DNA from: Hysterangium stoloniferum
Lineage: Eukaryota; Basidiomycota; Agaricomycetes; Hysterangiales; Hysterangiaceae
DNA length: 64,000 nucleotides
NCBI GenBank assembly: GCA_015178975.1
Contig: WHVD01000007.1
Coordinates: 248,001 to 312,000 of the forward strand
Direction of reading: 5' to 3'
How positions within the stretch are numbered: position 1 is the first letter of the stretch; the number at the start of each line of letters is the position of its first letter. Shown here in pieces: positions 5,171-63,945 of the stretch. The position numbers were made by a program, and so were the translations under genes. The notes below the pieces were generated by a model. The model was not told the DNA's origin, did no database searches, and saw only the letters and a list, made by a program, of their open reading frames with translations.

Positions 5171-5172
5171 AC

Positions 5173-12686: not shown

Positions 12687-12867
12687 GTGGCGATAACTCA
12701 AAGGAGGGAATGAGCCATGATGTCTAATTTCTCAAAGCAGATGAGTGGATGGATCGTTGATTTATCCATGCATGGAGTCACAATGTCAACTAAGACGAGC
12801 GAGAATGGCAGTTATATTGCTGCTGCCCACTGTGGTACACGCGGAGTCGATGTGGGAAGATGCAGCC

Positions 12868-18490: not shown

Positions 18491-20416
18491 ATGTCAACGT
18501 CCAACGAGATAGCTCCGAGTGGTCAGGATGTCCGATCCATCCTCCAAGAGGTTGACTGGCTACGACCCTTGGTTTCCCCGGCTGTAGTGAGGATGGAACG
18601 ACAGGAGATCGATGACACAGTAATGAGGGAAATATCCCGGATGAAGCTTCGAAAGCGATGTAGCTGTCTCGAACATGGACACTGTTTATTTTACCGAGCA
18701 CATGATGACGACCAGCACACAGAACTGTCGGAAGAAGACGTGGAAGCTGGTGTGGAGGAATGGGTGCGCAAACGAAAAATCATTTTTAAGGAGACTGTTC
18801 ACAGACCGGATGTTTTCAGTTCCAAGGAGAGAGAAATTGTCATGACGCCCCAAATAATATTCAGATTCGAGAGAGCTCCACCAACGCCACATCCAAAATC
18901 AGCCCATATCGTAGGCGTGCCATAGACTGGGGAGTTGGCTCATCTCCGGATAGCTCATCATCGAGTCTGTACATTAGCCCCGGGTATTACTGTGGAGTCG
19001 GTTTGGAAAAGGTTGGGAGGACTGTCCTTCACAACGCAAAGACAGCTGCACTGATGGCGAAGTTGATGATATACAAGCGAATGGTGTACGGACACGACAA
19101 GGCCTTTAAAAGGTTAATACGCAACATCTCACTCCTCCAAGACTCGGAATAGTAATTCAGGAGACCATCGACTTAATGAGGTGGGGATACTTTAGCGCCA
19201 ATCATTGAATACATTCAAAATACTCACGTCTTTCTAGACCCACTTCCCCGCGTCGAATTCGAGAACAGGCGTGGGTGGTCTTACACAAGTTTTGGGTTTC
19301 AAATGATATACAGCGGAGGAGCGGAGGGCACACTGCCAATCTTCTGGCATCGTTGGGTTCGGCATTCTACTTGTGTCCCGGCGCTCGATGGTACGATAGA
19401 GATCGGACATCAACTGCAATTACGTCTTTGCTTTACAATGCTGTCATCAAATCACCGCTACACACCAACCTGAATGAGGTTGCGTCGGCATTCATTCTCC
19501 AAATCGCCGGATATTTATCATTCCCATGCCATTCACGTACCTACCTCCTCGCCGACCTTGGGTATATCGTGGAACAAATTTGCCACGTGCGTCAACTGTC
19601 TGGAGAGGAGCTCACTGCGATTAGACGTTGCATTTAATTCTGGGTACAACCGTGCGTCGCGACATCACATCATTTCATCTGGCCCACCAAAACCACAACA
19701 GACAAAATCGCTCACATCGACGTTCCTTGTTTGGATCTCCTATGCAGCTTCTGGTGCACTGCATGCACGAAGATGTCTGGTTTCGAGATATTGCTGGAGA
19801 TGTATTGAAGGTTATAGTGGCTGACACAAACCACCATATAGCTCCTTGACTCTTTTGGATATGGACACATCGGATTCATTGTGGTATGGTATCTCGGATC
19901 TGGAAACCTTTTTCGGTAACAGCACGCTTCACACGCATCACATCAAACAACTGAATGTGGTCCATTCACTCATTGAGCCCCTCCTACGGTATGTTGAGAG
20001 TGGTTTACCTTCCAGCATCATCTAATATCCGCCCTTGAAAATATCATACCAGTCTGATTCTGACACACCCAAGTCCAAATGTGAACCTCCTCTGGTCAGG
20101 ATACCAACTAATTGAGATCACTCTGAACCTAATCGCTGAATCTTCCGACATCGACTCCGCTTGTAGCACAGTGCGCAACCTGTATATAATTGCCATTCTC
20201 CCTCGTCTTCTCCCACATTGTGAGGCAATGCGTGGCTCACTCGACGATCAATACCTCGGTTTTCTTGAACGATTACCCCAGTCCTTACTTTGTGTCATCT
20301 CCACACCTCTCACCGGTGTGTGCGCAACATCTAATTCAAACACCAGATCAGTGTTGGAGGACCATGGCTGGTCTGCCGATGCTCTTGCTCCATCCATTCC
20401 GTCCGATATGTCATAA
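18491..20416 (+). pseudogene. Family A copy (A7), five exons, broken
   Basis: Exon 1, 18491-18763 (MSTSNEIAPSGQDVRSIL). Intron 1, 18764-18819 (GTGCGC ... TTTCAG). Exon 2, 18820-19180 (PGYYCGVGLEKVGRTVLH). Intron 2, 19181-19237 (GTGGGG ... TACTCAC ... TTCTAG). Exon 3, 19238-19651 (CPGARWYDRDRTSTAITS). Intron 3, 19652-19701 (GTGCGT ... CAACAG). Exon 4, 19702-19988. Intron 4, 19989-20052 (GTATGT ... TACCAG). Exon 5, 20053-20416, ends with TAA. All eight splice borders are usable GT...AG. Compared with 56734-58712 and 1-752, it has frame changes in exons 2 and 4 and a stop late in exon 3. It shows the complete gene layout but would not give a full product. Confidence 0.65.
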
Positions 20417-23533: not shown

Positions 23534-25476
23534 TCATGATATATCATGCGGAATGGATGGAACAAGTGGATCGGGAAGGCCAGTCATAGTCCTGATCTGG
23601 AGTTTGAATTGGATGTTACATACACACCGGTGAAACATTTGGCAATGACGCAAAGGAAGGAATGAGCCATGAGGTGTAATTCCTCCAAGCGGGTACGGGT
23701 GAATGGATCGCTGATTGAGCCACACATTGCGTCACAATGGGGAAGAAGACGAGCGAGAATGGAGATTATATTAAGGCTGCGCACTGTGGCGCACGCGAAT
23801 TCGATATCGGAAGATGTAGCTATCAGCTTCAGTGTAACCTTAATTAGTTTCTCCCCTGACGAGAGGACCCAGAAATAGGGACTCGTGTGTGTCAGAATTA
23901 GACTGGTAGGATATTTGAGGGCGGATATGAGATTATGCTGGAAGCTAAAACATTGTCAACATACCTTAGGAGGGGCTCAATGAGCGAAGAAACCACATTA
24001 AGCTGGTTGATATGATCCGTGAGAAGCGTGCTGTCGTCGAAGAAGGTTTGTAGGGCCCAGATACAATCAAAAAGTGGGTATGAATCGTCCTAATAGATAT
24101 GAAGTGTCAATGACGCTATATGGGGTTTTGTGTCGTCCATTAGACGCTGCAATACATCTCCCGCAATATCTCGAAACCAGGCATCTTGGTGCATGCAGCA
24201 CACTAGGAGCCGTATCTGAAAGTAATGCGAGGATCGTCGGTATAGGTAATTTTCTCTGTTATGGTTTTGGTGGGCAGGATGACATGATTTGATGTCGCCA
24301 CGCACGGTTGTAACAAGATTTCAATGAAACCTCTGATCGAATTGAGCTCCTCTACAGACAGTTGACGGACTTCGCAGATGCTTTTCACCATATACGCAAA
24401 TTCGTCAACGAGGAAGGGATATTGATGGCATGACATGTATCGTGCGATTTGTAGAATAAATGTCGACCCAACCTCATCCACGTTGGTGTGTAACGGTGAT
24501 TTAATTACAGCATTGTAAAGCGATGACGTGATTGCAGTTGATGCACGATCTCTATATCCCAAGTGAGTGCCGGGACACCAGTAGAAGGCCGAACCCAAAT
24601 ATATCATAAGGTTGGCGTTGTGACCTCCGTTTCTCCGCTGTATGACCCATGAACTCCAGAAACTCTCTGAGACCACCGACGCCTGTTCTCGAATTCGAGC
24701 CGGGTAAGTGGGTCTAGCAAAACGGGAGTATTTTGAGTTTATTGAATGATTTCCTCAAAGTATCCCCACCTCATTAAGTCAATGGTCTCTTGAATTACTA
24801 TTCCGAGTCTTGGCAGATTGAGATGCTTGCGTAGGAACCTGTTACAGGCCTTGTCGCCTCCATACACAATTCGCTTATATATCATCAGCTTTGCCATCAG
24901 TGCAGCTGTCTTTGCAGTGTAAAGCACCCTCCTCTCAACCCTTTCCAAACCGACTCTACAGTAATACCCCGGTTCAATAGTAATACTTGAAGATGTCGAT
25001 GAGCTCTCAAACGGTGAGACCGCTCCCCAGTCCCCGCCATGACTGTCATATGGGCCGAGGTTGGATGTGGAATTGGTGGATCTACCTCGCATATCAATAA
25101 TCGTCGGTGGATCATGACAAGTTGTCTCTCCTAGCAACTGAAAGCGCCCAGTTTTTCAACAGTGTACATGGAAGGCTATCTGATTGTGCGCACCCATTCC
25201 TCAACCCAAACTTCCATATCGTCTTCAGACAGTGATATATGCTCGTCGTCTTCGGGAACTGGATAACACACACCGTCCCCGTGGTCTATACAGCTCCATC
25301 TGTCTCGAAGCTTGACCCGCAATCTTTCCCTTACCCCAGCGTCAATGATCTCCTCCCGTTCTTCTGAGCTCAATGCAGCTGGGGAGACCAATGGCTGTAA
25401 CCACTCAACCTCTTGTAGGAGGCTTTCAGCCCGTCCGATATCGTGGCCGCTCAGTCGTTTCGTTTGAAGTTGACAT
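23534..25476 (-). pseudogene. Family A copy (A9), full length but broken
   Basis: Start ATG at 25476 in the usual context. Exon 1 carries CIDHGDGVCYPVPEDDEH and EDDMEVWVEEW, then intron 1 (GTGCGC type). Exon 2 has GETTCHDPPTIIDMRGRS and YYCRVGLERVERRVLYTA. Exon 3 has TSSLYNAVIKSPLHTNVDEV. Exon 4 has LLVCCMHQDAWFRDIAGD. Exon 5 is degenerate (IISILARLLPHCDAM, then VYVTSNSNSRSGL). Splice borders match the family. The frame is lost early in exon 1 and in exons 4 and 5. Confidence 0.65.
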
Positions 25477-27060: not shown

Positions 27061-27590
27061 TGAAATTTGATTGCTTTGAGGTGTTGTTCTCGCCGTATTG
27101 TTATTTATGGAGCTGAAGGCCATCGTCGGACTCATTTGTGCACTCAGTCCCGATCGTGGTTTAATTGAGAGGTTTTCGCTATGAAAAATCATGTGAGGCC
27201 GACCCCGCAACTGATTCCTACCCCAGGCAGTATCAACATGGAGATTTGGTGAGAATATAAAGTAACAACCAAGGTGGCTAATATCTTTGCAGCGTCTCAC
27301 CAGCCTCTTACAATCTTTCCTAACCACCCATTACACCTCCACCCCCTCTTCATATAAGGATAGTAATCACAAGCGGACATTCCTCTCCTCTTGTTCCCCC
27401 TAGTCATCATATAGAAACCGGTGGTAACACGTGCACTTCAAAGTTATTGTCAAAACTTACTAGCAGTAGTAGTGGCACCTCCTCGTATTCAGCCAGCCTC
27501 ACGATCCTGACTTTTCCGAACTATCGGAAGGCATGGCAGCCCGTAATAACACGTGCAATTCAAAGATATCTTCAAAACTCCTTCCTGAAA
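27061..27590. other. Unassigned stretch between B8 and A10
   Basis: The first part (27016-27327) is open on the minus strand (DTAWGRNQLRGRPHMIFH). It corresponds to a stretch upstream of B at 38740-38960, so it probably belongs to an alternative B 5' region. The remainder, to 27590, has no clear match or gene. Confidence 0.35.
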
Positions 27591-28095
27591 ACCTTCTTCG
27601 ACAACAGCACGTTGCCTGTGAATCATATCAACCAGTTGAATATGGGTTCCTCCTTCATTGCCCCCCTCCTATGGTACGTTTGCGATGTTTTACCTTCCAG
27701 CATCACCTCATATCCACCCATGAAACTATCCTACCAGTCTGACTCTGACCCACACGAGTCCAAATTCGAGGTTCCTCTGGTCTGGCAATCGACTAATTGA
27801 GGTCACTCTGAACCTGATAGCTGGATCTTCCGCCATAGAATCCTTGTGTACCACAGTGCACAGCGTCACTATAATTCCCATTGTGACGCAATGCGCGGCT
27901 AAAGCAACTATCAGGGCATCAGTGACTGCCATGAAAAATTAAACGTCATGGGGTATTCCTTCCTTTGTGTCATCGCCACACCTTTTACCGATGCGTGAAT
28001 ACCAGCTAATTCAAACACAAGATCAGTGCTGGAAGATCATGACTTGGCCTGCCGGCGCTCTTGTTCCATCCATTCTGCACGATATATTATAATGT
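27591..28095 (+). pseudogene. Family A copy (A10), exon 4 end and exon 5
   Basis: Begins in exon 4 (STLPVNHINQLNMGSSF), passes the intron 4 region (tggtacgtttgcgatg ... taccag) and gives a shortened exon 5 (LIEVTLNLIAGSSAIES in part). It faces B9 tail to tail. The 5' two thirds are absent. Confidence 0.55.
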
Positions 28096-29356: not shown

Positions 29357-29880
29357 TTGAGTCCCTCCTATGGTATGTTGACAATTATTTACCTTGTAGA
29401 ATCACCTAATATCCGCCCATTAATATCTCCTACCAGTCTGTTTTTTACACGCATGAGCCCAACATTGAGGATCTCCTCCTCCTGCCAGGGAATAATTAAG
29501 ATCACTCTGAACCTGATAGCCAGATCTTCCCACATTAAATCCGCGTGCACCACAGTCCACAGCATCAATATCATCGCCATTATCGCTCGTCTTCTCCTAC
29601 ATTGTGAGGCAATGCGTGGCTCACTCAGCGGTCAATACCTCGATGCTGCCTTGAATAATTGAGCCTTGCGGCTTATTCCTTACTTTGTATCATCGTCACA
29701 CCTTTCACCGGTATGTGCGTAACGTCTAATTCAAACTACAGATCAGTGGTGGAGGACCATGATTGGTGTGCCAAAGCTCTTGGTCTATCCATTCCACATG
29801 ATATATCATTATTTCCCTTGGATCACACTGATACATTATCTGAGCCAGGAGGAAGGATAGTACTATTACTCTTTACTTTT
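29357..29880 (+). pseudogene. Family A copy (A11), 3' end only
   Basis: Begins at the very end of exon 4 (ESLLWYVDN-like), with the intron 4 donor as tggtatgttgac, and continues as exon 5 (IIKITLNLIARSSHIKSA, then IIVTPFTGMCVTSNSNYR). The frame shifts once between 29662 and the following open part. It is followed by B10 in the opposite direction. Confidence 0.55.
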
Positions 29881-32552: not shown

Positions 32553-32893
32553 ATGTTGTGCTCTGAGCATGAAATATCTAATGGGAAAAGATGTGCAAAA
32601 TATGATCATATTCTAGGGAACTTGGGAGGTTTTATATACAGCAAAACTATGAGTGGCACAATCTTAAATAACAAAAGCACATGTTGAGGACAATGGAAAA
32701 AGAGGAACAATGGAGGTGGAATATTCCAGCAGAATATGACAATACAATCAATGATATAGAACAAAGGACATATAGAAACAATGAGAAAGAAACACATGGC
32801 TATCTACCACTCGACACAATTGGACACATGACATCACGGGTATTGATGACAAGATCACAATGTAGGGAGTCTCACTCCCATACACTATTACAA
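32553..32893 (-). repeat. LTR of the Ty3/gypsy relic (5' LTR)
   Basis: Read on the minus strand it begins TGTAATAGTG near 32891 and would end ...GAGCACAACA near 32553, giving TG...CA ends. It contains the palindromic gggagtgagactccc typical of LTR starts. The inner border is less certain than the outer one, which abuts A exon 5 sequence. No second LTR was found at the left end. Confidence 0.5.
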
Positions 32894-34829
32894 AATTGAT
32901 CGTTAATCGAGCGGCACATCGTGTCACAATGTGGAAGGAAAAGAGTCACAACGGTCATAATATTGAAGCTGCTGACTGTGGTACACATGGATTTGGTGTC
33001 GGAAGACCCAGCTATCAGCTTCAGGGTGACGTCGATTAGTCCCTTGCTAGACTCTAGGAGCAGCCAATTTGGACACGTGTGTGTCAGATTCAGACTGGTA
33101 ATAGAGTTTCATGAGTGGGTGTGAGAAGATGATGGAAAGCAAAATATTGTACACATATTGTAGAAAGGGTCCAAGCAAAGAAGAAACTACATGCAGCTAG
33201 TTGATATGCTCCGTGCGAAGTGCGCTGTCCTCGAAGAAGGTTTTCAGGCCCCGGATATTGTGCCACGGTGATCATGTAATCACATGTTGATTGAAACGAG
33301 AATGTAAAACTAAAGGGTCCGTGCGTAAGACTGGGGACACCAGGATGACATATAAGATAAACATCAAAGCGTTCTCCCTGATGAGTTTGTCTGTTATGGC
33401 TTTCGTGAACATGATGACAAGATGTGATCGTGCGACGCACGGTTGTAACCAGCATTCAAAGTAATCTCTGATTGCGATGAGCTCCTGTACAGACAGCTGA
33501 TGAACATGACAGATATTTTCCATGATATTGCTAAGGCCAGCAGCAAGTAAGGGATGGTGATCGGATGACAAACATCATGCGATCTGTGTGATAAATGTTG
33601 ATGCAACCAAGTTGGTCTGTAGCGGTGATTTGATTAAAGCATTGTAAAGGGATGACATAATGGCAGTTGATCACCAATCTACATCTGAGCATCGAGCGCC
33701 GGGACACCCCAAGCCACATATGCCATAATGTAAGGGTTCCGCTATGAAGGAGTAGTGTAATCCCTTAGAGAGCTCTTTGCAAAAGGGAACGAAATGAGTA
33801 GGACTAGGTTCCTATTCGAAAGAGACTAAGGTAACAATACAAGGGATCTACCTATTTATGATAATAGCAGTATAGCCCCTTGCAGCAAGTAAAAAACCCG
33901 TGAAACAAACAACTAGTAGTCCAAGACACCACCGGCCAGGCGGGCCCGGCAGCCCCGATGCCAAGTCCGCCCTAACCCAAGTCCCCTACCGTTACACATA
34001 AGCTGCACTGCATAACTCGAATTCCAGATCCCCCCTACTGACGCCTGTTGGCGAATTGCGAGGTGGAGTAAGTGGGTCTAGAAAGAGGTGAGTATTCTCA
34101 GTGTATTCGCTGACTGGCACTCTGTCATCCTACCTCATTAGATCAACGTTCTCTTGAATTATTATTCCCTGTCGTGGCGGCGTGACATACCTGGGTAGAA
34201 ACTTGTCAACGACGTTCTGGCCTTCCCATGGCCCACGCGTGATTCGCTCATATATCATTGACTTTGTCACCAGCGAAGCTTTCTTTGCGCTGTAAAGCAC
34301 TTTCATCCCAACCCTTTCCAAACCGACTCCACAGTAATACCCGGGGCTAACTTCCACACTGGAAGATGAGCTATCCGGCAATGAGACGACTCCCCAGTCT
34401 ATGCCTACGAGATGGACTGAGTGTGTATGTGGAGTTGGTGGGTCTCCCTCGTATCTTAATATTGTTTGGTGAGTCATCGCAATTTCTCTCTCCTTGACAC
34501 TGAAAAAATCCGGTCTGTGAACAGTGTACATAAAAAGGACATTTCGCGTTCCGCACCCATTCCTTCACAAAAACCTCCACGTCTTCTTCAGACAGTTGTA
34601 TGTGCTGGTCGGCATCGGGTACTCGGTAACATACACAGTGCTCATGTTCGATGCTGCTACATCGTTCTGAAAGCTTCATCTGGAATATTTCCCTCATTCT
34701 CGTGTCATTGATCGCCTGTCGTTCCAAAGTCGATAAGGCCGGGAAAACCAAGGGCTGTAGCCACTCAACCTCTCGTAGAAGGGATATGATATCCTCCCTG
34801 CTCAGAGTTATCTCGTTGGAAGTTGACAT
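32894..34829 (-). pseudogene. Family A copy (A12), split by a solo LTR
   Basis: The ATG at 34829 opens exon 1 (MSTSNEITLSREDIISLL ... CSSIEHEHCVCYRVPDAD). Intron 1 has a GTGCGG donor and TTTCAG acceptor. Exon 2 (FQCQGERNCDDSPNN, then VEVSPGYYCGVGLERVGM) runs to intron 2. Exon 3 is interrupted at 33729-33996 by a solo LTR; on its far side, exon 3 and the 4/5 remnants continue to 32894. The part of exon 5 nearest the stop is missing, where the Ty3/gypsy relic abuts. Subfamily EITLSREDII, with 2503-4330. Confidence 0.65.
33729..33996. mobile_element. Solo LTR, 268 bp
   Basis: The element starts TGTAAGGGT and ends ACCGTTACA, near-perfect short inverted ends with TG...CA. A perfect 5-bp target duplication, cataa, flanks it (33724-33728 and 33997-34001). 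Removing it restores tatgccataagct, the sequence of other A copies. It looks like a typical solo LTR left by recombination of an LTR retrotransposon. No coding remains. It is unrelated in sequence to the LTR at 32553 and to the element at 12868. Confidence 0.85.
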
Positions 34830-35960: not shown

Positions 35961-36099
35961 CTATATGCTCTCGAATTGGCTCAAACTATGTATCTTTACA
36001 TAAATTATAAGTATTGCCAAAAGGCGAGTTAAGTACAAAGTAATAGTACCATCCTTCCTCCTGGTTTGGATAATGTGTCCGTTTTATCCAAGAGAACTT
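35941..36099 (+). pseudogene. Family B tail remnant (B11)
   Basis: Only the last B sequence remains (gtgactatatgctctcgaat ... ccaaaaggcgagttaag), running into the A copy on the opposite strand. Confidence 0.4.
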
Positions 36100-37075
36100 A
36101 TAATAAATTGTGCGGAATGGATGGAATAAGAGCATCGGTCCACCAGTCATGGAGGTTCAACACTAATATGGAGTTTGAATTATATATATTTCACGCACAC
36201 ATCCGTGAAAGGGGTGGCACTGACGCAAAGGAAGGAATGAGCCATGAGGTTTTATTGCTCACAACAGTAACCGAGGACTTGATCGTTGATTGAGCGGCAC
36301 ATTGCATCACACTGTGGAAGAATGGCCGATCTTCATCCAACCATCGAGAGCCGGGACACCAGAGGAAGGTCCAAGCCAAATGTGCCATAAGCTTGGTAGT
36401 TGCTCCTTCTTTCCTCTTCTATATAACACTTGAATCTCCCAACCCTTCTAATACTACTGACGCCTTTTCTCGAATTCGAAATGGATAAGTGGGTCTAGAA
36501 AGACGTGAGTATTTTGAGTGTATTCAATGCCTGACGCTATGAATCCCCACCTCATTAAGTCAATGGTCTCTTGAATTACTCTTCCGACTCTTGGAAGAGT
36601 GAGATCCTTGCGTAGGAACTTATTAAAGGCATTGTCGTCTCCGTTCACAATTCGCTTGTATATCATCAACCTTTCCATCAGTGCAGCCGTCTTTGCCTTA
36701 TACGGTACTTTCCTCCCAACACTTTCCAAACCGACTCTACAGTAATACCCCGGCTCGAGTATAATACTCGAAGACGTCGATGAGCTTTCAGACAGTGAGA
36801 CCACTCCCAAGTCCACGTCGTGAATGTAATGTGGACTGATATTATATCTACCTCGCATGTTAACAAAAGTCGGTGGATCATGATAACTTGTCTCTCCTAA
36901 GCACTGAAAGCGTCCAGTCCCTTAACAATGTACATGAAAGGATATTTCATTTTGCGCACCAATTCCTCCACGTAAATATCCACGTCTTCGTCAGACAGTG
37001 TCATGTGCCGGTCATCTTCAGATGCTCGATAACATAAACCGTTCCTGTGTTCAATACAGCTCCATCATTCTCGAA
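36100..37075 (-). pseudogene. Family A copy (A13), internally deleted
   Basis: The exon 5 end (36100-36325) is joined directly to mid exon 3 (cgagagccgggacacc at 36345). Exon 2 (LEPGYYCRVGLESVGRKV at 36454-36858) and a decayed exon 1 end (36930-37075) follow. Exon 4 and most of exons 3 and 5 are lost. The start codon region is absent. Confidence 0.6.
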
Positions 37076-37559
37076 CCTTTATATACCCAAATTTACTTAA
37101 TTATATCTAATAATCAAACATCTGAGACAACACGAGAGTCTCTCAGCTTCTATAGCTCGCAGACTCCAACGGGGAGCACATGTCCGCTTCGAATAATTTG
37201 ATGAGCTACCGCATAATGTGGCAACTTCCGACTTCTTGAGCGCTAGTGTTTGTTCATTTCAGCTTTTACGTTAGTTGAGCAGTGACGTCTTCATTGATAG
37301 AATGTGGAAATGCAGTGGATGCTATCCAGTACTTCTCAGGCACACCCTCGGGCGCTTTTGACTCGGTACGGAAACATGTGCTTCATAGTCAATACTTTCA
37401 GAATTCCAATTTCGATAATTCTTTACTCAGGCTATTTGGCGCCGAACGTGAATATGCCAGTTTATGGGGAGTCCGTCAGGTTTTCATCAACAAATCGTGT
37501 ATGTAATATATATTCAGTCATAATTGATGACACCTAGGATTATTATTACACAGTCCTTC
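37076..37559. promoter_or_regulatory. A-type upstream block and spacer
   Basis: Contains gctaccgcataatgtggcaa (37207) and the spacer sequence with ctcaggctatttggcgccga. No gene is supported. Confidence 0.4.
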
Positions 37560-40021: not shown

Positions 40022-41941
40022 TTATGATATATCGGACGGCATGTATGGAGCAAGAGAATCGGCAGGCCAGCCATGGTCCTCCAACACTGATCTGGAGTTT
40101 AAGTTAGATGTTACGCACACACCGGTGAAAGGTGTGGCAATGACAGAAAGTAAGGAATGAGCCGCAAAGTGTAATTGTTCAAGGGAGGCACCGAGGTATT
40201 GATCGTTGATTGAACTACGCATTGCCTCACAATGTGGAAGAAGACGAGCGATAATGGGGATTATATTGGGGCTGAGCATTGTGGTACACGCAGATTCGAT
40301 GTCGGAAGATGCAGCTATCAGCTTCAGAGTAACTTTAATTAATTCCTCGCCTGACGAAAAGAGACAGTAATTTGGAATCGGGCGTGTCAGAATCAGACTG
40401 GTATGATATTTTCCAAGGCGAATATTAGGTGATGCTGGCAGGTAAAACACTCTCAACATACCGTAGGAGGGGCCCAATTATCCAAGGGACAACTTTCAGT
40501 TGTTTGATATGATGCGTGATGTCGTCGAATAAAGTGTTCACAGCCAAGATACCATCCCACAATGAATACGCTGTGTACTTATCCATCATAAGAGTCAAGG
40601 ACGCTATATGGTGGTTTGTGTCATCCACTATAACCTTCAATACATCTCCAGCAATATCCTGAAACCAATCGTCTTCGTGGATGCAAGACACGAGAACCTT
40701 CATAGGACATTCATCCAAGGAAAGTCGGTGGGGGTAATTTTGTCTGTTGTAGTTTTGGTGGGCAGGATGAAATGATGTGATGTCGGGACGCACGGTTGCA
40801 ACCACAATTCAATGCAACCTCTGATGGTAGTGAGCTCCTCGACAGACAGTTTCCGCACGTGGCAAATGCTTTCCACGATATACCCGAAGGTACGTTTACA
40901 AAAGGATGATAAATATTGGGCGATTTGGAGAATGAATGCCGACGCTACCTCATCCAAGTTTTTGTGTAGCGGTTATTTGACTATAGCATTGTAAAGCGAT
41001 GATGTAAATTCAGTTGGTGGTAGATCTCTATCTGACCATCGAGCGCCGGTGCACTGGTAGAAGGCCCCACTCAAACACACCATAAGCTTCAGTGTCACCT
41101 CGGTTTCTCCACGTTATACCAGTTGGATCACAGAGATTCGTTGAGACCACCCACGCCTGTTTTTGAATTCGACGCGGGTAAGTGGGTCTAGAAAGACGTG
41201 AGTATTTTGAGTGTATGCAATGATATACCCACCTCATTAAGTCAATGGTCTCTTGAATTATGATTCCGAGTCTTGGAAGAGTGAGAGGCTTTCGTAGGAA
41301 CCTGTTACACGTCCTGTGGTTTCTATACACCATTCGCTTGTATAGCATCAACTTTGCCATCAGTGCAGCTGTCTTTGCACTGTAAAGCACAGTCTTCCCA
41401 ACGCTTTCCAACATGACTCCACAGTAATACCCCGGCTCAATTTTAATACTTGAAGATGTCGATGAGCTCTCATACAGTGAACCCACTCCCCAGTCCACGT
41501 CATGACTATAATGCGGACTGAGGTTGGATGTGGCGGTCGTGGATCTGCCTCGCATTTTAATAATAATCGGTGGATCATGACAATTTGTCTCTCCTAGCCA
41601 CTGAAAGCGTACAGTTTGTCAACAATATGCATTAAAGGCTATTCCATTTTGCGCACCCATTCCTCAGTCCAAACCTCCACATCTTCTGCAGACAGTGGTA
41701 TATGCTGGTCGTCTTCGGGAATTCGATAACACACACCGTTCCCATGTTCGATACAGCTCCATCGGTCTCGAAGCCTTACCCGTAATATTTCCCTTATCGC
41801 CGCATCAACTACCTCCTCCCCTTCTACTGAGCTCATTGCAGCTGATGAGACCAAGGGTTGTAGCCACTCAACCTCTTTTAGGAGGCTTTCAACCTGTTCG
41901 ACATCGTCGCTGCTCAGAGTCGTTTCGTTTGAAGTTGACAT
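40022..41941 (-). pseudogene. Family A copy (A14), five exons, broken
   Basis: Exon 1, 41657-41941 (285 nt; MSTSNETTLSSDDVEQVE ... WTEEW). Intron 1, 41601-41656. Exon 2, 41233-41600 (368 nt; GETNCHDPPTIIIKMRGR). Intron 2, 41188-41232. Exon 3, 40794-41187. Intron 3, 40744-40793 (50 nt). Exon 4, 40462-40743. Intron 4, 40398-40461 (64 nt). Exon 5, 40022-40397 (376 nt; LIKVTLKLIAASSDIESA). Exon 1 and 5 lengths equal those of 56734-58712 exactly. The CDS total is not a multiple of three and exon 3 is shortened, so it is broken, though exon 5 looks clean. Confidence 0.65.
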
Positions 41942-46538: not shown

Positions 46539-48092
46539 ATGTCAACTTCAAACGAAACGACTCTGAGCGGCCACGATATCGGACGGGCTGAACGCCTCTT
46601 ACAAAAGGTTGAGTGGTTACAACCATTTCTCTCCCCAGCTGCATTGAGCTCAGAAGAGCGGGAGGAGATCATTGACGCTGGGATAAGGGAAAGATTGCGG
46701 ATCAAGCTTCGATACCGATGGAGTTGCATAGAACATGGGGACGGTGTGTGCTATCGAGTTCCCGAAGATGACGAGCATATACCACTGTCTAAAGACGATG
46801 TGGAAGTGTGGGTTGAGGAATGGGTGCGCAACATGAGACAGCCTTTCATGTACACTGTTGAAAAAATGGCCGCTTTCAGTTGCGAGGAGAGACAACGTGT
46901 CATGATCCACCGACGATTATTAATATGCCAGGTAGATCCACTAACGCCACATCCAACCTCCACCCACATGACAGTCATGACGTCGACTGGGGTGCGGTCT
47001 CACTGGTTGAGAGCTCATCGATATCTTCAAGTATCACTATTGGGCCGGGGTATTTCTGTAGAGTCGGTTTGGAAAATGTTGGGAGGAATGTGCTCTACAC
47101 TGCAAAGACAGCTACACTGATGGCAAAGTTAATGATATACAAGCGAATGGTGTATGGAGACGACAGGGCCTGTAGCAAGTTCCTCCAGAAGCATCTCACT
47201 CTTCCAAGACTCGGAATAGTAATTCAAGAGACCATCGACTTAATTAGGTGGGCATACCTCACAGCCAAACATTGAATACACTCAGAATACTCACGTTTTT
47301 CTAGGCCCACTTACCCGCGTCGAATTCAAAAACAGGCGTGGGATGTCTTAGGGTCGTTCTGGAATTCAAGAGGTATACAGCGGAGGACAGAAGATCGCAC
47401 TGCCAGGCCTTCTACTGGTGTCCCGGCGCTCGATGGTCAGATGTAGATCGGAGATCAACTGGAATTACATCATCGCTTTACAATGCTGTAATCAAGTCAC
47501 CGCTACACACCAACGTGGATGATGTTGCCTCGATAGTTATCCTACAAATCGCACGATATTTGTCAAGCCATCTATATCCCTTCCTCTTTGAAGAACTTGT
47601 GTATATTGTGAAAAACATCTACCACGTCCGTCAACTGTCTGTAGAGGAGCGCACTGCGATCAGAGGTTGTATTGAATTCTGGTTACAACCGTGCGTCATG
47701 ATATCACATCATTTCTTCCTGCTCACCAAAACCACTGCAGCCAAAATTCCCCACACCGATTTTCCTTGGATGAATCTCCTATACAGCGTTTCGTTTCTTG
47801 CTTGCACCAAGTTTCCTGGTTTGTGTATATTGCTGAAGATGTATTGAAGGTCATGGTGGCCGACGCAAACCTCCATGTACCGTCCTTGACGTTTCATAAT
47901 GATAGGGACACAATTGATGCATTGTGGCGTGATATCATGGCTCTGAAAACCTTAGTCCCTGACCGAACACTCACGGATCAGATCAACCAGCTGCATGTGG
48001 TTTCTTTGGTCATCGAGCCCCTCCTAAGGTATGTTGACAAATCGTTGCCTTCCAGCATCATCTCAAATCCACCCATTAAAATATCCTACTAG
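46539..48092 (+). pseudogene. Family A copy (A17), exons 1-4
   Basis: Exon 1, 46539-46823 (285 nt, open; MSTSNETTLSGHDIGRAE). Intron 1, 46824-46879 (GTGCGC ... TTTCAG). Exon 2, 46880-47247 (open; GETTCHDPPTIINMPGRS, then LTLPRLGIVIQETIDLI). Intron 2, 47248-47304. Exon 3, 47305-47690, shortened in its first half but with CPGARWSDVDRRSTGITS. Intron 3, 47691-47740 (GTGCGT ... TGCAG). Exon 4, 47741-48028 (288 nt, open; INQLHVVSLVIEPLLR). Intron 4, 48029-48092 (GTATGT ... TACTAG). After a few bases of exon 5 the sequence jumps to another A copy. Exons 1, 2 and 4 look clean. Confidence 0.65.
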
Positions 48093-48740
48093 TCTGATTT
48101 TGACCCACGAATTACAATTTATCGCTACCTTACACAGCCTTTCGTGCGTTGCATATACCAAGAGGCGTGGCTTCGAGATATATCTGGTGATGTATTAAAG
48201 GCTATATCGTCTGCAGAAATATCCATATGGCGTCATTGACACCTCATATCGATGAGGGCAGGTCACATTCACTGTGGCGTAATATCTGGGCCCTAAAAAC
48301 CTTCTTCGAGGACAGCAAGCACGCTTCGCACAAATCATATCAACCAGCTGCATAGTGTATTCGTTGCTTTGACCCCTTCTACAGTACGTGTACAATATTT
48401 TACCTTCCAGCATCGTCTCACATCCACCCATGAAACTATCCTACCAGTCTGGAAAGGGGGCACAGTCCGCATACTCAATATTCTCTCCATTTCTCGCTCG
48501 TTTCCTTCCACATTGTAACACAATTGCGTCGCTCAGTTAACGATAAATTGTGCAGTAGCTGCCTACATTTTTTAAATCACATTCTTCATCCCTCCCTTTC
48601 CGTGATCGCCACACCTCTCACTGGTGTATCGGTAACGTCTCATTAAAACTCCACGTCAGTGTTGAAGAATTATGGTTGGACTGTCAAAGGCCCTCCTCAC
48701 GATTTAGGCACGACATAGAATCATTTCTCTGGATAACGCC
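48093..48740 (+). pseudogene. Second A copy, exons 4-5, fused to A17
   Basis: Resumes inside an exon 4 of the diverged type (ggcttcgagatatatctggt), with its own intron 4 (donor tacagtacgtgtac, acceptor tcctaccag at about 48440) and a diverged exon 5. It is the inverted counterpart of 2503-3060. Confidence 0.55.
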
Positions 48741-50840: not shown

Positions 50841-52785
50841 TTATGAAATATCGGACGGAATGGATAGTGCAAAATAATTGGCAGGCCATCCATGGTACTC
50901 CAACACTGATCTGGAGTTCGAATTAGATGTTACGCACACACCGGTGAAAGGTGTGGCGATGACACAAAGGAAGGACTGAGCCGCGAAGGTTAATGCTTCA
51001 AGCCGGTAAACGAGGTATTTATCGTTGAGTGAGCCACGCATTGTGTCACAATGTGGAATAAGACGAGGGAGAATGGCAATTATATCCAGGTTGCGCACTG
51101 TTCTATACGCGGATTCGATGTCGGAAGATCCAGCGATCAGGTTCAGAATGACCTCAATTAGTTTGTCTCCTGACCAGAGGAGGTTCCAATTTGGACTGGG
51201 ATGTGTCAGAATCAGACTGGTATGATATTTTCAAGGGCGGATATTAGATGATGCTGGAAGGTAAACCACTCTCAACATACCGTAGGAGGGGCTCAATGAG
51301 TGAATGAACCACATTCAGTTGTTTCATGTGATGCGTGTGAAGCGTGCTGTTGCCGGAGAAGGTTTGCAGACCCGAGATATAATACCACAATGAATACGTT
51401 GTGTCCATATCCATAATATGAGTCAAGAACGCTATCTGGTGGTTTGTGTCAGCCACTATAACCTTCAATACATCCCCAGCAATATCTCGAAACAATGCAT
51501 CTTCGTGCATGCAACACACCAGAAGCTGTACAGGGGATCCAAACAATGAACGCCTATGTGAGTAATTTTGTCTGTTGTGGTTTTGGTAGGCCAGATGAAA
51601 TGATGTGATGTCGCGACGCACGGTTGTACCCAGAATTCAATGAAACCTCTAATCGCAGTGAGCTTCTCTACACAGTTGACGCACGTGGCAAGTTTGTTCC
51701 ACGATATACCCAAGCTCGGCGAGGAGGTAGGTACGTGAATGGCATGGGCATGATAAATATCGGGTGATTTGTAGAATGAATGCCGACGCAACCTCATTCA
51801 GGTTGGTGTGTAACGGTGATTTTATGACAGCATTGTACAGCGAAGACGTAATTGCAGTTGATGTCCGATCTCTATCTTCCCATCGAGCGCCGGGACACCA
51901 GAGGAAGGCCGAACCCAAATATGCCATAGGATTGGCAGTGTGACCTTCGTTCCTCCGCTGTATAAAACTTGAATCGCAGAACAGGTCTGAGACAAGTGAC
52001 GCCTGTTGTCGAATTTGACGCGGGTAAGTGGGTCTATAATGATGAGTAGTTTGAGTGTATTCAATGATTGGCGTTGAAGTATCCCCACCTCATTAAGTCG
52101 ATGGTCTCTTGAATTACTATTCCTATTCTTCTCAGAGTGAGATGATTCCGTAGTAACTTTTTAAAGGCCCTGTCGTGTCCATGCACCATTCGCTTGTATA
52201 CCATCAACTTTGCCATCAGTGCAGCTGTCTTTGCGTTGTGAAGCACAGCCCTCCCAACCGTTTCCAAACCGACTCCACAGTAATACCCGGGGCTAATTTC
52301 CAGACTCGATGATGAGCTATCCGGAGATGAGCCAACTCCCCAGTCTATGGCACGCCTACGATATGGGCTGATTTTGGATGTGGCGTTGGTAGAGCTCTCT
52401 CGAATCTGAACATTATTTGGTGCGTCATGACAATTTCTCTCTCCTTGGAACTGAAAACATTCGGTCTGTGAACAGTCTCCTTAAAAATGATTTTTCGTTT
52501 GCGCACCGATTCCTCCACACCAACTTCCACGTCCTCTTCCGACAGTTCTATGTGCTGGTCGTCATCATGTGCTCGGTAACATAAACAGTGTCCATGTTCG
52601 AGACAGCTACATCGCTTTCGAAGCTTCATCCGGGATATTTCCCTCTTTCCCGTTCCCGTGTCATCAATCTCCTGTCGCTCCATCCTCAATACAGCCGGGG
52701 AAACCAAGGGTTGTAGCCAGTCAACCTCTTGGAGGAGGGATACGACATCCTGCCCACTCGGAGCTATCTCGTTGGAAGTTGACAT
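50841..52785 (-). pseudogene. Family A copy (A19), full length but broken
   Basis: The ATG at 52785 opens exon 1 (MSTSNEIAPSGQDVVSLL ... CSCLEHGHCLCYRAHDDD) with a small in-frame gain (DDTGTGKREIS). Intron 1 is 52451-52506 (56 nt, GTGCGC ... TTTCAG). Exon 2 contains AVLHNAKTAALMAKLMVY. Exon 3 contains NAVIKSPLHTNLNEVASA. Exon 4 (LLVCCMHEDALFRDIAGD) lies in 51244-51621, and exon 5 ends at 50841 (CVIATPFTGVCVTSNSNS). It is the inverted sister of 18491-20416. Exon 1 has no stop; small shifts occur later. Confidence 0.65.
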
Positions 52786-55029: not shown

Positions 55030-55590
55030 GTGACATTGGACTAGATTTAAGAAAATTAAAAAATTGTAAGCTGAAAGACTTAAAAGGTCGACCAGCATCC
55101 AAAGGCACTATACAGTATAACTGATGCGTAGCGATACGGGAGACGTGCGAGGAAGCCAGAGGCCAGGACCACTTGATAGCAAACGGGTCTAAATTAGGTA
55201 TAGGAAGCTTACCGGGTGACACACCTGTATATCCCCAATATTCTGTGACCACTGGTTGAAGGAGGAAAATGAAGAGGAAGAAGCCCCAAGGACACGGGAT
55301 GTCTTGAAGAAGACGAAGCATCAGTAAATTGGTATTTGATTCGGGCTATTTACGGAAGGAAGGCCCCGTAATCGAGAGTGCGCCCCTGGACATGGTGTAG
55401 TGTCTGGAACAGCCTGGAGCATCCCAAATAGCCGTTCTTCCTCCGAGCGCCTAAAACCATTGTAGTGATGAGTTCTCAATTCGAACAAGTCTGTTCTTTG
55501 ATTTAAACGAATCCCTTTTGAGCACCTGGCTGGATTGGTGCTGCTATTACCACAAACAAGCAACTGAATGAGACATAATGTCGTCATTAT
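55030..55590 (-). pseudogene. Family B copy (B18), 5' and middle parts
   Basis: Minus strand. The 5' part (55321-55587) reads RLNQRTDLFELRTHHYNGF and PSVNSPNQIPIY. The middle part (54977-55321) reads LLQDIPCPWGFFLFIFLL and LDPFAIKWSWPLASSHVS. The C-terminal exon is missing. Hydrophobic residues after DIPCPW suggest a possible membrane or signal stretch, if coding. Confidence 0.45.
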
Positions 55591-55784
55591 CTAGGTGAAT
55601 ACGGTCCTCGGCGCCGGAGCACATTTTGCCATCTCTTACCCAACTTTGTACGATTCCTGGTGATTCAGAGTTTTCGTTAGTATGTATCTAGGTTTTTTGG
55701 CCTCATCGCGTGGGATTGAAGTGACTATACCCCAGGTTAGGCCACCAGCCACTCTTGAATTGACAAAGATACATAAAATGCCAG
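55591..55784. other. Spacer upstream of B18
   Basis: Matches the B 5' flank (accaactttgtacgattcctgg type; gattcagagttttcgttagt). No gene. Confidence 0.45.
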
Positions 55785-56115
55785 TCAGGCACGTCAAGTG
55801 AGATACCCAGGTGTCAACTTCTGAACTTGCATATAATAATCAAGTTAATTATGTACTATACACATACATCGGGAAGTTTCAAAGCATTAAATATGTCCTG
55901 TTTACACAATATATTAACACAAATAGGGTGATAGAAATATAAAATAGCACGATACGTCACACGAGTAGGATATTACATATGCTGTTTTCATCATGAACCT
56001 TGCAAGTCCAGGACGGGAAATGAGGAGCAAAACCATACCATTGAATCATGAGGGATTCCCCATTACTCCGCTCATGCGGACCGGGTATTACTAATTCTGG
56101 CGTGTACTTAATTAT
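55785..56115. repeat. Repeat block D, copy 3
   Basis: Starts with ggcacgtcaagtgagatacc and ends near ccgggtattactaattctgg. It is the best full-length example together with 60045-60350. Confidence 0.65.
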
Positions 56116-56733
56116 GACTGAATATAGATTACATGCACGATTTGTTAATGAAAATCTGACGGACTCGCCAAAAACAGGCATATTCACTTTCTACGCCAAT
56201 TAGCCCAAGTAAAGAATTATTAAAATGGGATGCTCGTTGGAATTCTGAAAGAATTGAACACGAAGCGGACGCTTCCGCTAAATATAGCCAGAGTGGCGGG
56301 GCTGTACCTGAGAAGCACTGTCATGGATAGCATCCACTGCATTTACATATTCTATCAATTGACATTTCACTTCTCAACTAACGTAAGAGATTAATTCCCA
56401 AAACTCTAGCGCTTGAGAAGTCCGAAGTTGCCACATTATGCGGTGAAGGTTCATTGAACTATTCATGACTGCCATATCTGCTCTCTGCTGTAGACAATCT
56501 GTTGAAGACGAAGGAATTGGTCTATACCATAGTGTGAGAACTTGAGACAATCCTGGAGCATGTATGAATGAAGGAGGTTGAGGCTTGAGGCTGTGTAAAA
56601 GGAAGGGATGAAACACTGGGTATCCTGTATAAAGCACCGCCACAATGCGATACCTTGAAATTTAGTCCCTTGATAATTGGAACTTGAAGGCGCAGCATCC
56701 CCTTCCGGTATCACAACAACGTGCTACCCACCA
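56116..56733. promoter_or_regulatory. Upstream block of A21
   Basis: Near-identical to 15961-16584, with the divergent open segment at 56374-56643 on the minus strand. It ends at ctacccaccaATG of the A start. It is the most likely place for the promoter of the best-preserved A copy. Confidence 0.45.
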
Positions 56734-58712
56734 ATGTCAACTTCAAATGGGACGACTCTCGGCAGCAACGATGGTGTACGGGCTGAAAGCCTCCTCCAAG
56801 AAGTTGAGTGGCTACACCCCTTGGTCTCCCCAGCTGCATTGAGCGCAGGAGAGCGGGAGGAGAGAGTTGACGCAGTGAGAAGGGAAAGATTCTGGGTAAA
56901 GCTTCGAGACCGATGGAACTGTATCGAAGATGGGCATGGCATGTGTTATCGAGGTCCTGAAGACGACGAGCATATCCGACTGTCTGAAGAAGATGTGGAA
57001 GTTTGGGTTGAGGAATGGGCGCGCAAAATACAATAGTCTTCATGTACACTGTTGACAAACTGGATGCTTTTAGTGCCTAGGAGAGGAACATTGTCAAGAC
57101 CCACCGACTATTATTAAAATGTGAGGTAGATCCACTAACACAACATCGAAGATGAACCCATATTACAATCATCATGAGATCGACTGGGGAGTGGTTTCAC
57201 GGGCTGATAGCTCGTCTTCAATTCTTGATATTAGCCCCGGGTATTACCTAGGTGTTGGCATGGACAGGATTGGGATGGGCGTGCTTCACAGCGCACAGAG
57301 AGCTTCGCTGATGGCAAAGTTGATTATATACGGGGAAATAGCCCGTGGATACGGAAGGAACAAGGCGTTTGACAAGTGTCTACATACGTATCTCACTCTG
57401 CCAAGACTGGGAATGGTAATTCAAGAGACCATCGATTTGATGAAGTAGGGATACAACCGCGTCAACCATTGATTACTCAACATACTCACGTCTTTCTAGA
57501 CCCACCTATCCCCTTCAAATTAGACAACAGGCATGGGTGGTCTTACGGGATTGGACGTCCTTACACCGCATATGGTATTCAAGTGGTATAAAGTGGAGAA
57601 ACGGAGTTCACACTGCCAAGCTTATGACATATTTGGCTTGGGCCTTCCTCTGGTGTCCCGGCGCTCGATGGTCAGATGTAGATCGGGGATCAACTTCAAT
57701 TACGTCTTCCCTTTACAAGGCTGTCATCAGATCACCACTACACACCAACGTGGATGAGGCTGCGTCCCCATTCATTGTACAAATCGCCGAATATCATTCA
57801 TCATCTTTTCCTTCTCCAAATTTCATCACCAGTGGCCTTGGGTATATCGTGGAACACATCTCCCACGTGCGTCAATTGTCTGCAGTGGAGCTTGCTGTGA
57901 TCAGAGTTTACATTGAATTCTTGTTAAAACCGTGCGTCGCGACATCACATTATTGCATCCTGTCCACCAAAACCAGAATGGACAAAATTACTCACACCGA
58001 ATTTCCTTGTTTGAATCTCCTATAGGGATTCTCGTGTGTTCCATCCACCAAGATTCCTGGTTTCGAAATATTGCTGGAGATGCACTGAAGCTTATTTTAG
58101 ACGAAGCAAGCCTCCATATAGCAACATTGACACTTCATATCGATGAGAACACGCCATGCTCACTTTTTCACCATATCAGAGACCTAGAAACCTTCTTTGA
58201 CGACAGTACTCTTTGCATGGATCATATAAACCAGCTGAATGTGGTTTCTTCGCTCATTGAACCCCTCCTAAGGTATGTTGACAATGTTTGACCTTCAAGC
58301 ATAACCTTATATCCCCCAATTCAAATATCCTACCAGCCTGATTACGACACACAGGAGTGAAACATTTTTTCTCCTCTTTTCAGGCAGGAAAATAATCGAG
58401 GTTACTCTGAAGCTGATAGCTGCATCTCCCGACATCGAATCCGCGTGTACCATAGTGCGCAGCCTCAATATGATCAACATTCTCGCTCGTGTTCTTCCAC
58501 ATTGTGACTCAATGCATTACTCAATCAACGATCAATACTTCGGTGGCCGCGTTGAACGATTTTGCCTCGCGCCGTATTCCTTCCTTTGTGTCATCGCCAC
58601 ACCTTTCACCGGTGTGTGCGTAACGTCTCACTCAAGCTCTCGAGCCGTGTTGGAGAATCATGGTTGGTCTGCCGATGCTCTTCTTCCATCCATTATGCAC
58701 AATATATCATAA
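56734..58712 (+). pseudogene. Family A gene (A21), best-preserved full copy
   Basis: Exon 1, 56734-57018 (95 codons; MSTSNGTTLGSNDGVRAE ... CIEDGHGMCYRGPEDDEH). Intron 1, 57019-57073 (GC donor, TTTTAG acceptor). Exon 2, 57074-57444 (371 nt; ISPGYYLGVGMDRIGMGV). Intron 2, 57445-57499 (GTAGGG ... TTCTAG). Exon 3, 57500-57931 (432 nt; FLWCPGARWSDVDRGSTS). Intron 3, 57932-57981 (GTGCGT donor; acceptor altered). Exon 4, 57982-58272 (291 nt; ILVCSIHQDSWFRNIAGD). Intron 4, 58273-58336 (GTATGT ... TACCAG). Exon 5, 58337-58712 (376 nt; IIEVTLKLIAASPDIESA). The total of 1755 nt encodes 584 residues plus stop. One early stop in exon 2 (TGA where relatives have CGA) and two weakened splice sites are the only faults I see. 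No known domain, signal peptide or membrane helix. Confidence 0.65.
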
Positions 58713-60350: not shown

Positions 60351-60910
60351 AGGTTGCTGGGAAAAGACAAAGGACTCAAACTCAAGCTGGGGGATAAAAA
60401 TACTTTACAGAGCAAGAAATATTCGTTGATGACAAAGTTGATGATATACAACCGAATGGTGCGTGGACGATGGGAAGGCCGGAATCTCGTTGATGGGTCT
60501 CGGCTCAGCTATCTCACTCCACTCAGGCTGGGAATAGTAATTCAAGGGAGCATTGATTGATTGAGGTAGGGATACAACAGCGTCAATCAGCGAATACATT
60601 CAAAATACTCACATCCTTTTAGACCCACCTATCCCCGTCGAATTCGAAAACAGGCGGGGATGGTCTTAGAAGGATTCATCTGGGTTTCAAATGGTGGGAG
60701 GAACTGACGAAACACTGCCAAGCTTCTGGTGTATTTGGGTTCGGCCTTCTCCTTGTCTCCCGGCGCTCGATGGGACGATAGAGATCGGCCATCAACTCCA
60801 ATTACGTCTTCGCTGCACAATGCTGTAATGAAATCAGCGCGACCAACGTGGATGAGATTGCGTCGACATTTATCCATCAAATCCCCGGATATTTCTCATC
60901 TCCATGCATT

Positions 60911-61088
60911 GCGGTTATCATGCATCAGGAAAGTGGGAAGATCAGTAAGTATGCCGTCTATATTGGCTAGAGCCATCTAGGAGAGCTAGCTACACTCGGC
61001 TAGACACACTACTTTCGCGAGATCCCTATTTACTAGTCGGTATAAAAGCTTACTATAGATCTAGGGAGTCTAGGGAGGTTAGAGAGTC
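60911..61088. other. Foreign insert in A22 exon 3
   Basis: About 180 bp replace exon 3 sequence. The insert contains ggtataaaagcttactatag and several gagtctaggga-like repeats. This looks like part of a transposable-element end region, but neither terminal repeats nor a target duplication can be seen. Confidence 0.4.
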
Positions 61089-61192
61089 TACATAATGGGT
61101 GTAGACATTCCCTGTAGTGGAGCTCACTGCGATCAGAGGTTACATAATGGGTGTAGACATTACCTGTAGTGGAGCTCACTGCGATCAGAGGT
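61089..61192. repeat. 52-bp tandem duplication
   Basis: Units 61089-61140 and 61141-61192 both begin tacataatgggtgtagacat and end with exon 3 sequence cactgcgatcagaggt. They differ by about two bases. The unit joins foreign sequence to A sequence, so it arose after the insertion next to it. Confidence 0.85.
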
Positions 61193-61360
61193 TACATTGA
61201 ATTATGGGGGAAACCGTGCGTCGCGATATCACATCATTTCATCCTGCCCCACCAAGCCCACAACAGACAAAACTACCCACACCGACGTTCCTTGTATGAG
61301 TCTCCTGTACGGCGTTTCATATGTTGGATGCACCAAAATGCCTTTTTTCGATATTTTATT

Positions 61361-62005: not shown

Positions 62006-63945
62006 TCATAGTACTATCCCTCCTCCTGGTTCGGATTGTGTATTGGTGTTACCGAAGAGAAATTGCGGTGGCGCAATGGATGAAACAAGAGCATCGGCAC
62101 GCCAAACATGGTCCTCCAACACTGATCTGCAGTGTAAATTAAATGTTACGCACACACCAGTGAACGGTGTGGCGATGACACAAAGGAAGGAATGGGCCGC
62201 GACAGTTACGCGTTTAAGGCAGCGACCGAGGTATTGATCGTTGATTGAACCGCGCATTGCGTCACAATGTGGAAGGAGACGAGAGAGAATGGGGATGATA
62301 TTGAGGCTGCGCATTGTGGTACACGCGGATTAGATGTCGGAAGATCCAGCTATCAGCTTCAGAGTCACATCAATCAGGTCTTCGCCTGAAAACAGGAGCA
62401 ATAAATTTGGACGGTTGTGTGTCAGAATCAGACTGGTCGGATATTTTCATGGGCGGATATGAGATGGTGCTGGAAGGTAAAGCATTGTCAACATACCTTA
62501 GGAGGGGTTCAATGAGCGAAGAAACCACATTCAGCTGATGGATCTGATCCGTGCGAAGCGTTCTGTCGTTGAAGAAGGTTTCTAGGGCCTTGGTATTATG
62601 CGACAGTGAATTTAACGTGCTGTCATCGATATAAAGTGTCAAGGACGCTATAAGGAGGTGTGCGTCGTCCACTATAACTTCAAAACATCTCCAGCGATAT
62701 CTTGAAACCAGGCATCTTGGTGTATGCAACACACCAGAAGCTGCATAGGAGTTCCAAACAAGGAATGTCGATGTGAGTGATTTTGTCTATTGTGGGTTTG
62801 GTGGGCCAGATGAAATGATGTGATGTCGCGACGCACGGTTGTGCCCAGAATTCAATGCAACGTCTAATCGCAGTGATCTCCTCTACAGACAGCTGACGCA
62901 GGTGGCAAGTTTGTTCCACGAGATACCCAAGCTCGGCGAGGAGGAAGGTACGTTCACAAAAGGATGTTAGATATCCGGCGATCTGTAGAATGAATGCCGA
63001 CGCAACCTCATTCAGGTTGGTGTGTAGCGGTGATTTGATGACAGCATTGTAAAGCGAAGACGTAATCGCAGTTGATGGCCGATCTACATCTCCCCATCGA
63101 GCGCCGGGACACAAATTGAAGGCCCAAGCCAATTCAGCATATGAATTCCCGCACATCTCTAAGACAACTGACGCCTGTTGTCGAATTCGATGCGGGTAAG
63201 TGGGTCTAGAATGGTGAGTATTTTGAGTGTACTCAATGATTGGCGCTGAAGTATCCCCACCTCATTTAGTCAATGGTCTCTTGAATTAATATCCCGATTC
63301 TTCGCAGAGTGAGATGCTTTCGTATTAACTTCTTAAAGGCCCTATCGTCTCCATACGCCATTCGCTTGTATATCATCAACTTTGCCATCAGTGCAGCTGT
63401 CTTTGCGTAGTAAAGAACATTCCTCCCAACCCTTTCCAAACCGACTCCACAGTAATACCCGGGGCTGATTTCAACACTTGAAGATGAACTCTCCGGAGAG
63501 GAGACGAGTCCCCAGTCAATGTCATGCCTACGATATGGACTGAGTTTGGACGTGGCGTTGGTGGATCTCCCTCGTGTCTTAATATTATTCGGTGGGTCAT
63601 GGCAATTTATCTGTCCTTGGCACTGAAAACATCCGCTCTGTGAACAGTCTCCACCAAAAGGATGTTTCGTTTGCGATTCCTCCACACCACCTTCCACGTC
63701 TTCTTCCGACAGTGCTATGTGCTGGTCGTCGTCATATGCTGGGCAACATAAACAGGACCCACGTTCGAGACAGCTACATCGCCCTCCAAGCTTCATCAGA
63801 GGTCTTTCCTTCATTCCAGTTTCATCGATCCCCTGTCGTTCCATCCTCAATACAGCCGGGGAAACCAAGGGTTTAGCCAGTCAACCTCTTGGAGGAGGGA
63901 GAGGGCATCCTGCTCACTCGGAGCTATCTCGTTGGACGTTGACAT
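62006..63945 (-). pseudogene. Family A copy (A23), full length but broken
   Basis: The ATG at 63945 opens exon 1 (MSTSNEIAPSEQDALSLL). The frame shifts early, then 63266-63868 is open: CSCLERGSCLCCPAYDDD, through a shortened intron 1 region read in frame (CSQSGCFQCQGQINCHDP), to exon 2 (ISPGYYCGVGLERVGRNV ... LTLRRIGILIQETID). Exon 3 (CPGARWGDVDRPSTAITS) and exon 4 (62370-62732) follow. Exon 5 runs past the usual stop to 62006. A loss in the intron 1 region lets exon 1 and 2 read as one. It is closest to 18491 and 50841. Confidence 0.65.

Follow-up and report, generated by a model that had tools for sequence, protein, structure and literature searches.

The window analysed here, a 64,000-base stretch of the Hysterangium stoloniferum genome, spans positions 248001-312000 of contig C522, which is 1.61 Mb long and belongs to an assembly of 111 Mb and 554 contigs. 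It carries copies and fragments of a single gene family, referred to as family A, along with the spacer that is duplicated with the gene (Table 1). The original prediction proposed a five-exon gene at 56734, and this layout holds, with exons that sum to 1755 nt and phases of 0, 2, 2, 2. The 285-nt exon 1 was found again in the copies at 40022-41941, 46539 and 56734, and the 376-nt exon 5 in those at 1-752, 40022 and 56734. The 56734 copy on which that gene model was based is itself a pseudogene: its intron 1 donor is GC (57019-57020), its intron 3 acceptor is GG (57980-57981), and a TGA interrupts the frame at 57122-57124.

Table 1. Family A features in the window (positions are those of the window).
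Feature	Position	Strand	Remarks
Family A copy, 3' part	1..752	+	
Family A copy	2548..4301	-	broken
Family A copy	5143..7033	-	broken; end of intron 1 deleted
Family A copy	9431..10039	-	only exons 1-2
Family A fragments	12064..12872	-	exon 5
Family A fragments	14135..15445	-	exons 3-5
Family A copy	16585..17773	+	88% identity to 56734 copy; truncated past exon 3
Family A copy	18491..20416	+	frame-shifted
Family A copy	23536..25476	-	frame-shifted
Family A fragment	27585..28092	+	exons 4-5
Family A fragment	29357..29809	+	exon 5
Family A copy	32893..34829	-	broken
Family A fragments	36098..37085	-	exons 1-3 and 5
Family A copy	40022..41941	-	frame-shifted
Family A copy	46539..48691	+	3' part rearranged
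Family A copy	50841..52785	-	frame-shifted
Upstream spacer, duplicated with gene	55082..56733	+	about 87-93% identity in close copies
56734 copy, exon 1	56734..57018	+	285 nt, 95 codons; C63/C71/H80 pattern conserved
56734 copy, intron 1	57019..57073	+	55 nt; GC donor in place of GT
56734 copy, exon 2	57074..57444	+	371 nt; in-frame TGA
56734 copy, intron 2	57445..57499	+	55 nt; GTAGGG...TACTCAC...CTAG
56734 copy, exon 3	57500..57931	+	432 nt; predicted helical; replacement excess among close copies
56734 copy, intron 3	57932..57981	+	50 nt; acceptor GG in place of AG
56734 copy, exon 4	57982..58272	+	291 nt
56734 copy, intron 4	58273..58336	+	64 nt; GTATGT...TACCAG
56734 copy, exon 5	58337..58712	+	376 nt including stop codon
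Family A fragments	60408..61357	+	internal exons
Family A copy	62072..63945	-	broken

Exon matches in the window and in loci retrieved from elsewhere in the genome fell into 102 groups, each representing a copy or a fragment; 52 of them have all five exons and 44 are distinct. Six of the 44, including the 46539 copy, were excluded beforehand for their odd length, and the remaining 38 were aligned. The four introns are as constant in this larger set as had been claimed from the window: each has a GT donor in 37 of the 38 full-length copies, and the AG acceptors of introns 1 to 4 are present in 36, 37, 36 and 37. Their lengths are mostly 53-58, 45-58, 49-50 and 61-64 nt, with a deletion in intron 1 in two of the 38 copies. 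Exon 1 is the most conserved of the five exons.

Some other features of the window were also noted. A perfect tandem repeat of a 24-base unit (5.3 copies, 100% match) lies at 26122-26249, in surroundings that have diverged. The region 12001-16000 is AT-rich, with a GC content down to 0.38 and a strong excess of G over C, and a similar skew is seen at 31001-34000. An open frame of 162 residues on the forward strand (44524-45009) has no Pfam match and no other match in the retrieved loci.

Genome-wide, the earlier count of at least five copies proved true but far too low. The search of the whole genome with exon 3 of the 56734 copy was evaluated for the best 151 scored matches of 1,356 first-look candidates, and that with exon 3 of a divergent copy on contig C524 for the best 151 of 1,471. 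By eye, the two lists have 14 places in common, so that exon 3 occurs at at least about 288 distinct places in the genome. Among the matches listed, whose ranking favors open matches, a stop was seen by eye in 31 of about 150 rows for the 56734 exon and in 11 of about 150 for the C524 exon.

On C522, family A is densely packed between about 15 kb and 1.29 Mb, an array of about 1.27 Mb, and two 8-kb probes of the same contig at 1.40 and 1.55 Mb contained no copies. It is also found along C8, C106 and C149, and a second set resides on C388, C257, C28, C547, C63, C524, C367 and other contigs. The copies occur in both orientations. Outside the array, at about 1.552 and 1.557 Mb of C522, there are two similar tandem frames that look F-box-like by eye (L053:2099-2998 and 6928-7749). 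The 5.8S rRNA gave five matches on C516, C15, C90 (two places) and C246, and the fall of their scores from 155 to 128 bits suggests diverged or decayed rDNA copies. A 5.8S/ITS region of the assembly resembles that of a basidiomycete, probably an agaricomycete.

The upstream homology ends at 55082 in four distinct copies, and in the retrieved loci L017 and L018 another family A unit lies beyond this edge. Part of the spacer recurs downstream of the 56734 copy, at 59342-60312 (75%), and the repeated unit is therefore the gene plus its spacer, about 4.2 kb in length. The spacer was considered as a second gene and rejected, as its open frames decay across copies and have no Pfam match. Frames with RVT_2 (E 5e-39) and retrotransposon gag (E 2e-7) domains adjoin family A copies at L020:5294-6001 (minus strand) and L031:2-781 (plus strand); since these domains lie in DNA neighbouring two copies, retrotransposons are present among the family A copies. 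The copies do not appear to be retrocopies: of the matches listed by a search with the full-length protein, none is clearly without introns, and long ones such as those on C179 and C524 span introns with stops. Nor is a link to telomeres indicated, as the eleven exact (TTAGGG)4 occurrences are on C1, C2, C97, C112, C179, C246 and C528, and none is on C522, C8, C106 or C149.

By the evidence of its sequence, family A is almost certainly protein-coding. Eleven of the 38 full-length copies have the whole frame without stops, nine of these with all eight splice dinucleotides, and eight further copies of the close subfamily add two more intact ones. Thus, 11 of 46 copies are intact, with a frame of about 580 residues and all eight splice dinucleotides, although this fraction does not apply to the whole genome, because the sampled copies were picked as good matches to the query. 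The other 35, including all seven window copies of the 38-copy set, are defective in frame, stop or splice site, or in more than one of these.

The close subfamily was analysed in 21 copies, about 92% alike, on C522, C8 and C106. Together they have 14 in-frame stops. Random placement of the same numbers and kinds of substitutions would lead to 77.9 (sd 8.6, with a minimum of 54 over 1000 simulations). Of the distinct gaps, 54 of 99 in exons but four of 29 in introns have a length divisible by three (Fisher P 1e-4). Matches without stops amount to 57 of 66, 64 of 80, 59 of 91, 67 of 76 and 60 of 80 for exons 1 to 5, some places being counted twice. As internal controls, the open frames of the spacer gave 14 long matches, of which one besides the query is without stops, and antisense frames gave 15, with the query alone stop-free. 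The original view that family A is, now or formerly, a real protein-coding gene is thus supported, and some copies are both intact and constrained.

It had also been expected that an alignment would show an excess of silent changes and exons that vary less freely than introns. The silent excess is found between subfamilies, with dN/dS of 0.65 (56 pairs) and 0.58 (21 pairs), but not among the 21 closest copies, where pN/pS is 0.97 for the whole gene. By exon, the values are 0.51 (0.33-0.86), 0.89, 1.61 (1.13-2.43), 0.96 and 0.99 for exons 1 to 5. The comparison with introns is likewise divided. Introns 2 and 3 are less variable than any exon, with per-site differences of 0.018 and 0.027 in the 21 close copies; introns 1 and 4 have 0.078 and 0.057, and replacement sites of exon 3 have 0.086. 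Yet stops are depleted more than five-fold, and gaps keep the frame far more often in exons than in introns.

The silent excess fails among the close copies because these combine variable and conserved classes of codons. To separate the classes, each codon was ranked by how much it varies in other subfamilies (215 matches at no more than 75% identity), so that the close copies play no part in the choice. In the most variable third of codons in exons 3-5, the close-copy pN/pS is 1.65 (1.25-2.30), and in exon 3 it is 2.30 (1.48-3.93); 2000 bootstraps gave no value of 1 or less. In the least variable third, it is 0.68 for exons 3-5 and 0.40 for exon 3. Considered singly, the most variable thirds of exons 4 and 5 do not reach significance (1.41 and 1.16), and no such replacement excess is seen in exons 1-2 at codons that vary elsewhere (0.84). 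Conversion between subfamilies could import variants, but it would bring silent ones as well. Hypervariability of specific codons was considered as well and rejected, as 62 codons have five or more replacement-position changes on the tree against 53.5 expected from third positions, which is not significant.

Linkage between variants falls off rapidly with distance. For 122 biallelic sites in 21 copies, the mean r2 is 0.33 below 5 bases, 0.13 at 80-160 bases and 0.05 beyond 400, and the correlation of r2 with log distance is -0.363 (shuffled sd 0.012). Since linkage decays within 100-200 bases, the copies recombine. The tree of close copies has short inner branches and long tips, with many repeated changes, including at silent sites. 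From these sequence patterns, copies on separate contigs (C522, C8 and C106) appear to exchange short tracts.

Replacement diversity among the close copies is periodic along exons 3-5, at lags of 3, 4 and 7 residues (z 6.0, 5.3 and 4.0), with a Fourier peak at 100 degrees (P 0.006). Other subfamilies have the same helical rhythm in exon 3 (z 5.3, 5.7 and 3.9) and a weaker one in exons 4 and 5. It is absent from exon 1 of other subfamilies and from exons 1-2 of the close copies, and third positions are weakly rhythmic as well (z 2.2, 2.9 and 2.9 at lags 3, 4 and 7). The variability of individual positions in the close subfamily is correlated with that in the others (rho 0.65, 0.52 and 0.39 in exons 3, 4 and 5). 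Hydrophilic positions tend to be the more variable ones (rho -0.20, P 1e-4), and the variable positions probably lie on the surface of the protein. The close copies are thus not in free drift, because stops are depleted, exon gaps are often multiples of three, and replacements occur at helix-periodic positions that are variable elsewhere.

AlphaFold predicts the window exon 3 as an all-helical structure of six helices, at low confidence (pLDDT 59, pTM 0.42). Family A has no Pfam match to ARM or HEAT repeats. A Foldseek search of the PDB with this low-confidence model returned 131 matches at E of 10 or less, the best with an E of 1.4 and none at 0.001 or less. The exon 1 model (pLDDT 52) is too weak for use. 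There is no signal-peptide-like start in the family A proteins, and a hydropathy scan of 15 of them found no run of transmembrane segments (maximum 2.05, with 0 to 8 windows above 1.6 in each). Any hydrophobic stretch in them is borderline at most and usually lies close to the C-terminus.

The description of the family as unrecognised holds against Pfam, the PDB, and viral and prokaryotic sequence. No Pfam family matches the five exon pieces at E up to 10, and a search with six family A proteins gave DUF5413 alone, in one member (E 0.035). Sequence searches of the PDB had best E values of 0.78 and 0.63. Viral contigs contain 98 pattern stretches, none of which was confirmed by tblastn, and no relative was found in prokaryotic genomes, so a viral or prokaryotic origin was rejected. 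Pfam found no transposase, integrase or reverse transcriptase domain in family A; RVT_2 and gag belong to neighbouring DNA. No description of the family appeared among the open-access papers listed by literature searches.

On balance, we consider it probable that family A is an intracellular helical family that forms a diversified repertoire for binding or recognition. Under this explanation, family A would consist of functional nuclear genes of the fungus, with introns and in many copies. Their intracellular product of about 580 residues would have a short, conserved N-terminus (exon 1) and be α-helical in its C-terminal two thirds (exons 3-5); here we infer the fold, the cellular location and the role in recognition. 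Units of gene and spacer, about 4 kb long, would duplicate in both orientations and build very large arrays, and gene conversion would move short tracts between copies as a supply of variants. Purifying selection would keep the core of the protein, and positive selection would change exposed positions of the helices. The most likely use would be as intracellular binding or recognition surfaces, whether these recognise self/non-self, parasites or genomic conflict. Multigene families that diversify are a mark of biological conflict, and if the explanation is true, family A would be a large fungal system for recognition or conflict, as yet unstudied, with a positively selected helical face.

Other explanations share part of this evidence. 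The array of about 1.27 Mb, the copies along C8, C106 and C149 and the retroelement pieces beside copies might be expected of a structural repeat, such as a centromere- or heterochromatin-like array in which the frames are incidental. Copies are found on many other contigs too, however, and the stop depletion in the 21 close copies contradicts such an origin: it is confined to the gene, as are splice conservation and frame-preserving gaps, while the spacer and antisense frames decay. We regard a structural repeat as extremely improbable. A relaxed process of birth and death would have the family lose a former function while unequal exchange multiplies the copies, the scarcity of stops being due mainly to youth and to conversion from a few intact masters. 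The close-copy pN/pS near 1, both for the whole gene and in exons 2, 4 and 5, is what relaxed genes would have, most sampled copies are broken and conversion is active. However, this process predicts neither a pN/pS above 1 at sites chosen from other subfamilies, alongside 0.40 at conserved ones, nor the recurrence of the helical rhythm in those subfamilies, and conversion alone would import silent changes in proportion; we hold it possible but unlikely.

Family A might also be selfish, for instance a family of killer-type meiotic drivers, in which conflict between copies drives diversity and a gain in transmission enlarges the arrays. The wtf meiotic drivers of Schizosaccharomyces are multi-exon, multi-copy genes with gene conversion, fast protein change and many pseudogenes, and family A shares all of these features, with hundreds of copies and with retrotransposon pieces adjoining some of them. 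The wtf drivers are further marked by a poison and an antidote made from alternative starts and by drive in crosses. However, the wtf proteins are multi-pass membrane proteins, while those of family A lack a run of transmembrane segments and are hydrophobic over a borderline stretch at most. Its copy number is far higher than that of wtf, and to our knowledge, its arrays far exceed those of any known driver family. A selfish family thus seems rather unlikely.

Returning to a recognition repertoire, it might be of an archive type, in which most copies serve as donors of short conversion tracts to fewer intact genes and continually new binding surfaces arise. Such a system would be comparable in kind to antigen or receptor archives, on a previously undescribed fold; as one joint claim, we find this quite doubtful. 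The VSG and var antigen archives comprise hundreds of copies in arrays, many of them broken, with mosaic exchange and a diversifying surface. Family A resembles them in each of these respects, its diversifying surface being a predicted one. However, VSG and var encode parasite surface proteins, whereas family A is fungal and has no signal-peptide-like start.

The nearest described parallel to family A is the set of HNWD genes of Podospora anserina, which include het-d and het-e and belong to fungal NLR-type allorecognition. According to the HNWD report, that family has ten members with exchange between them, and positive selection acts on four residues per repeat, located on the interaction surface (PMC1805685). 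Family A is not a member of the HNWD family, because the domains of the latter are absent from it: Pfam found no NACHT, NB-ARC, WD, ANK or TPR domain in family A. The HNWD genes are ten in number and carry WD repeats, whereas family A has hundreds of copies, four conserved introns and no Pfam domain; its exchange involves tracts of whole genes and not repeat units, and no internal repeat was recognised in it. What the two have in common is that each is a fungal multigene family with exchange among its members and positive selection at particular positions of a recognition domain, which in family A is a predicted one.
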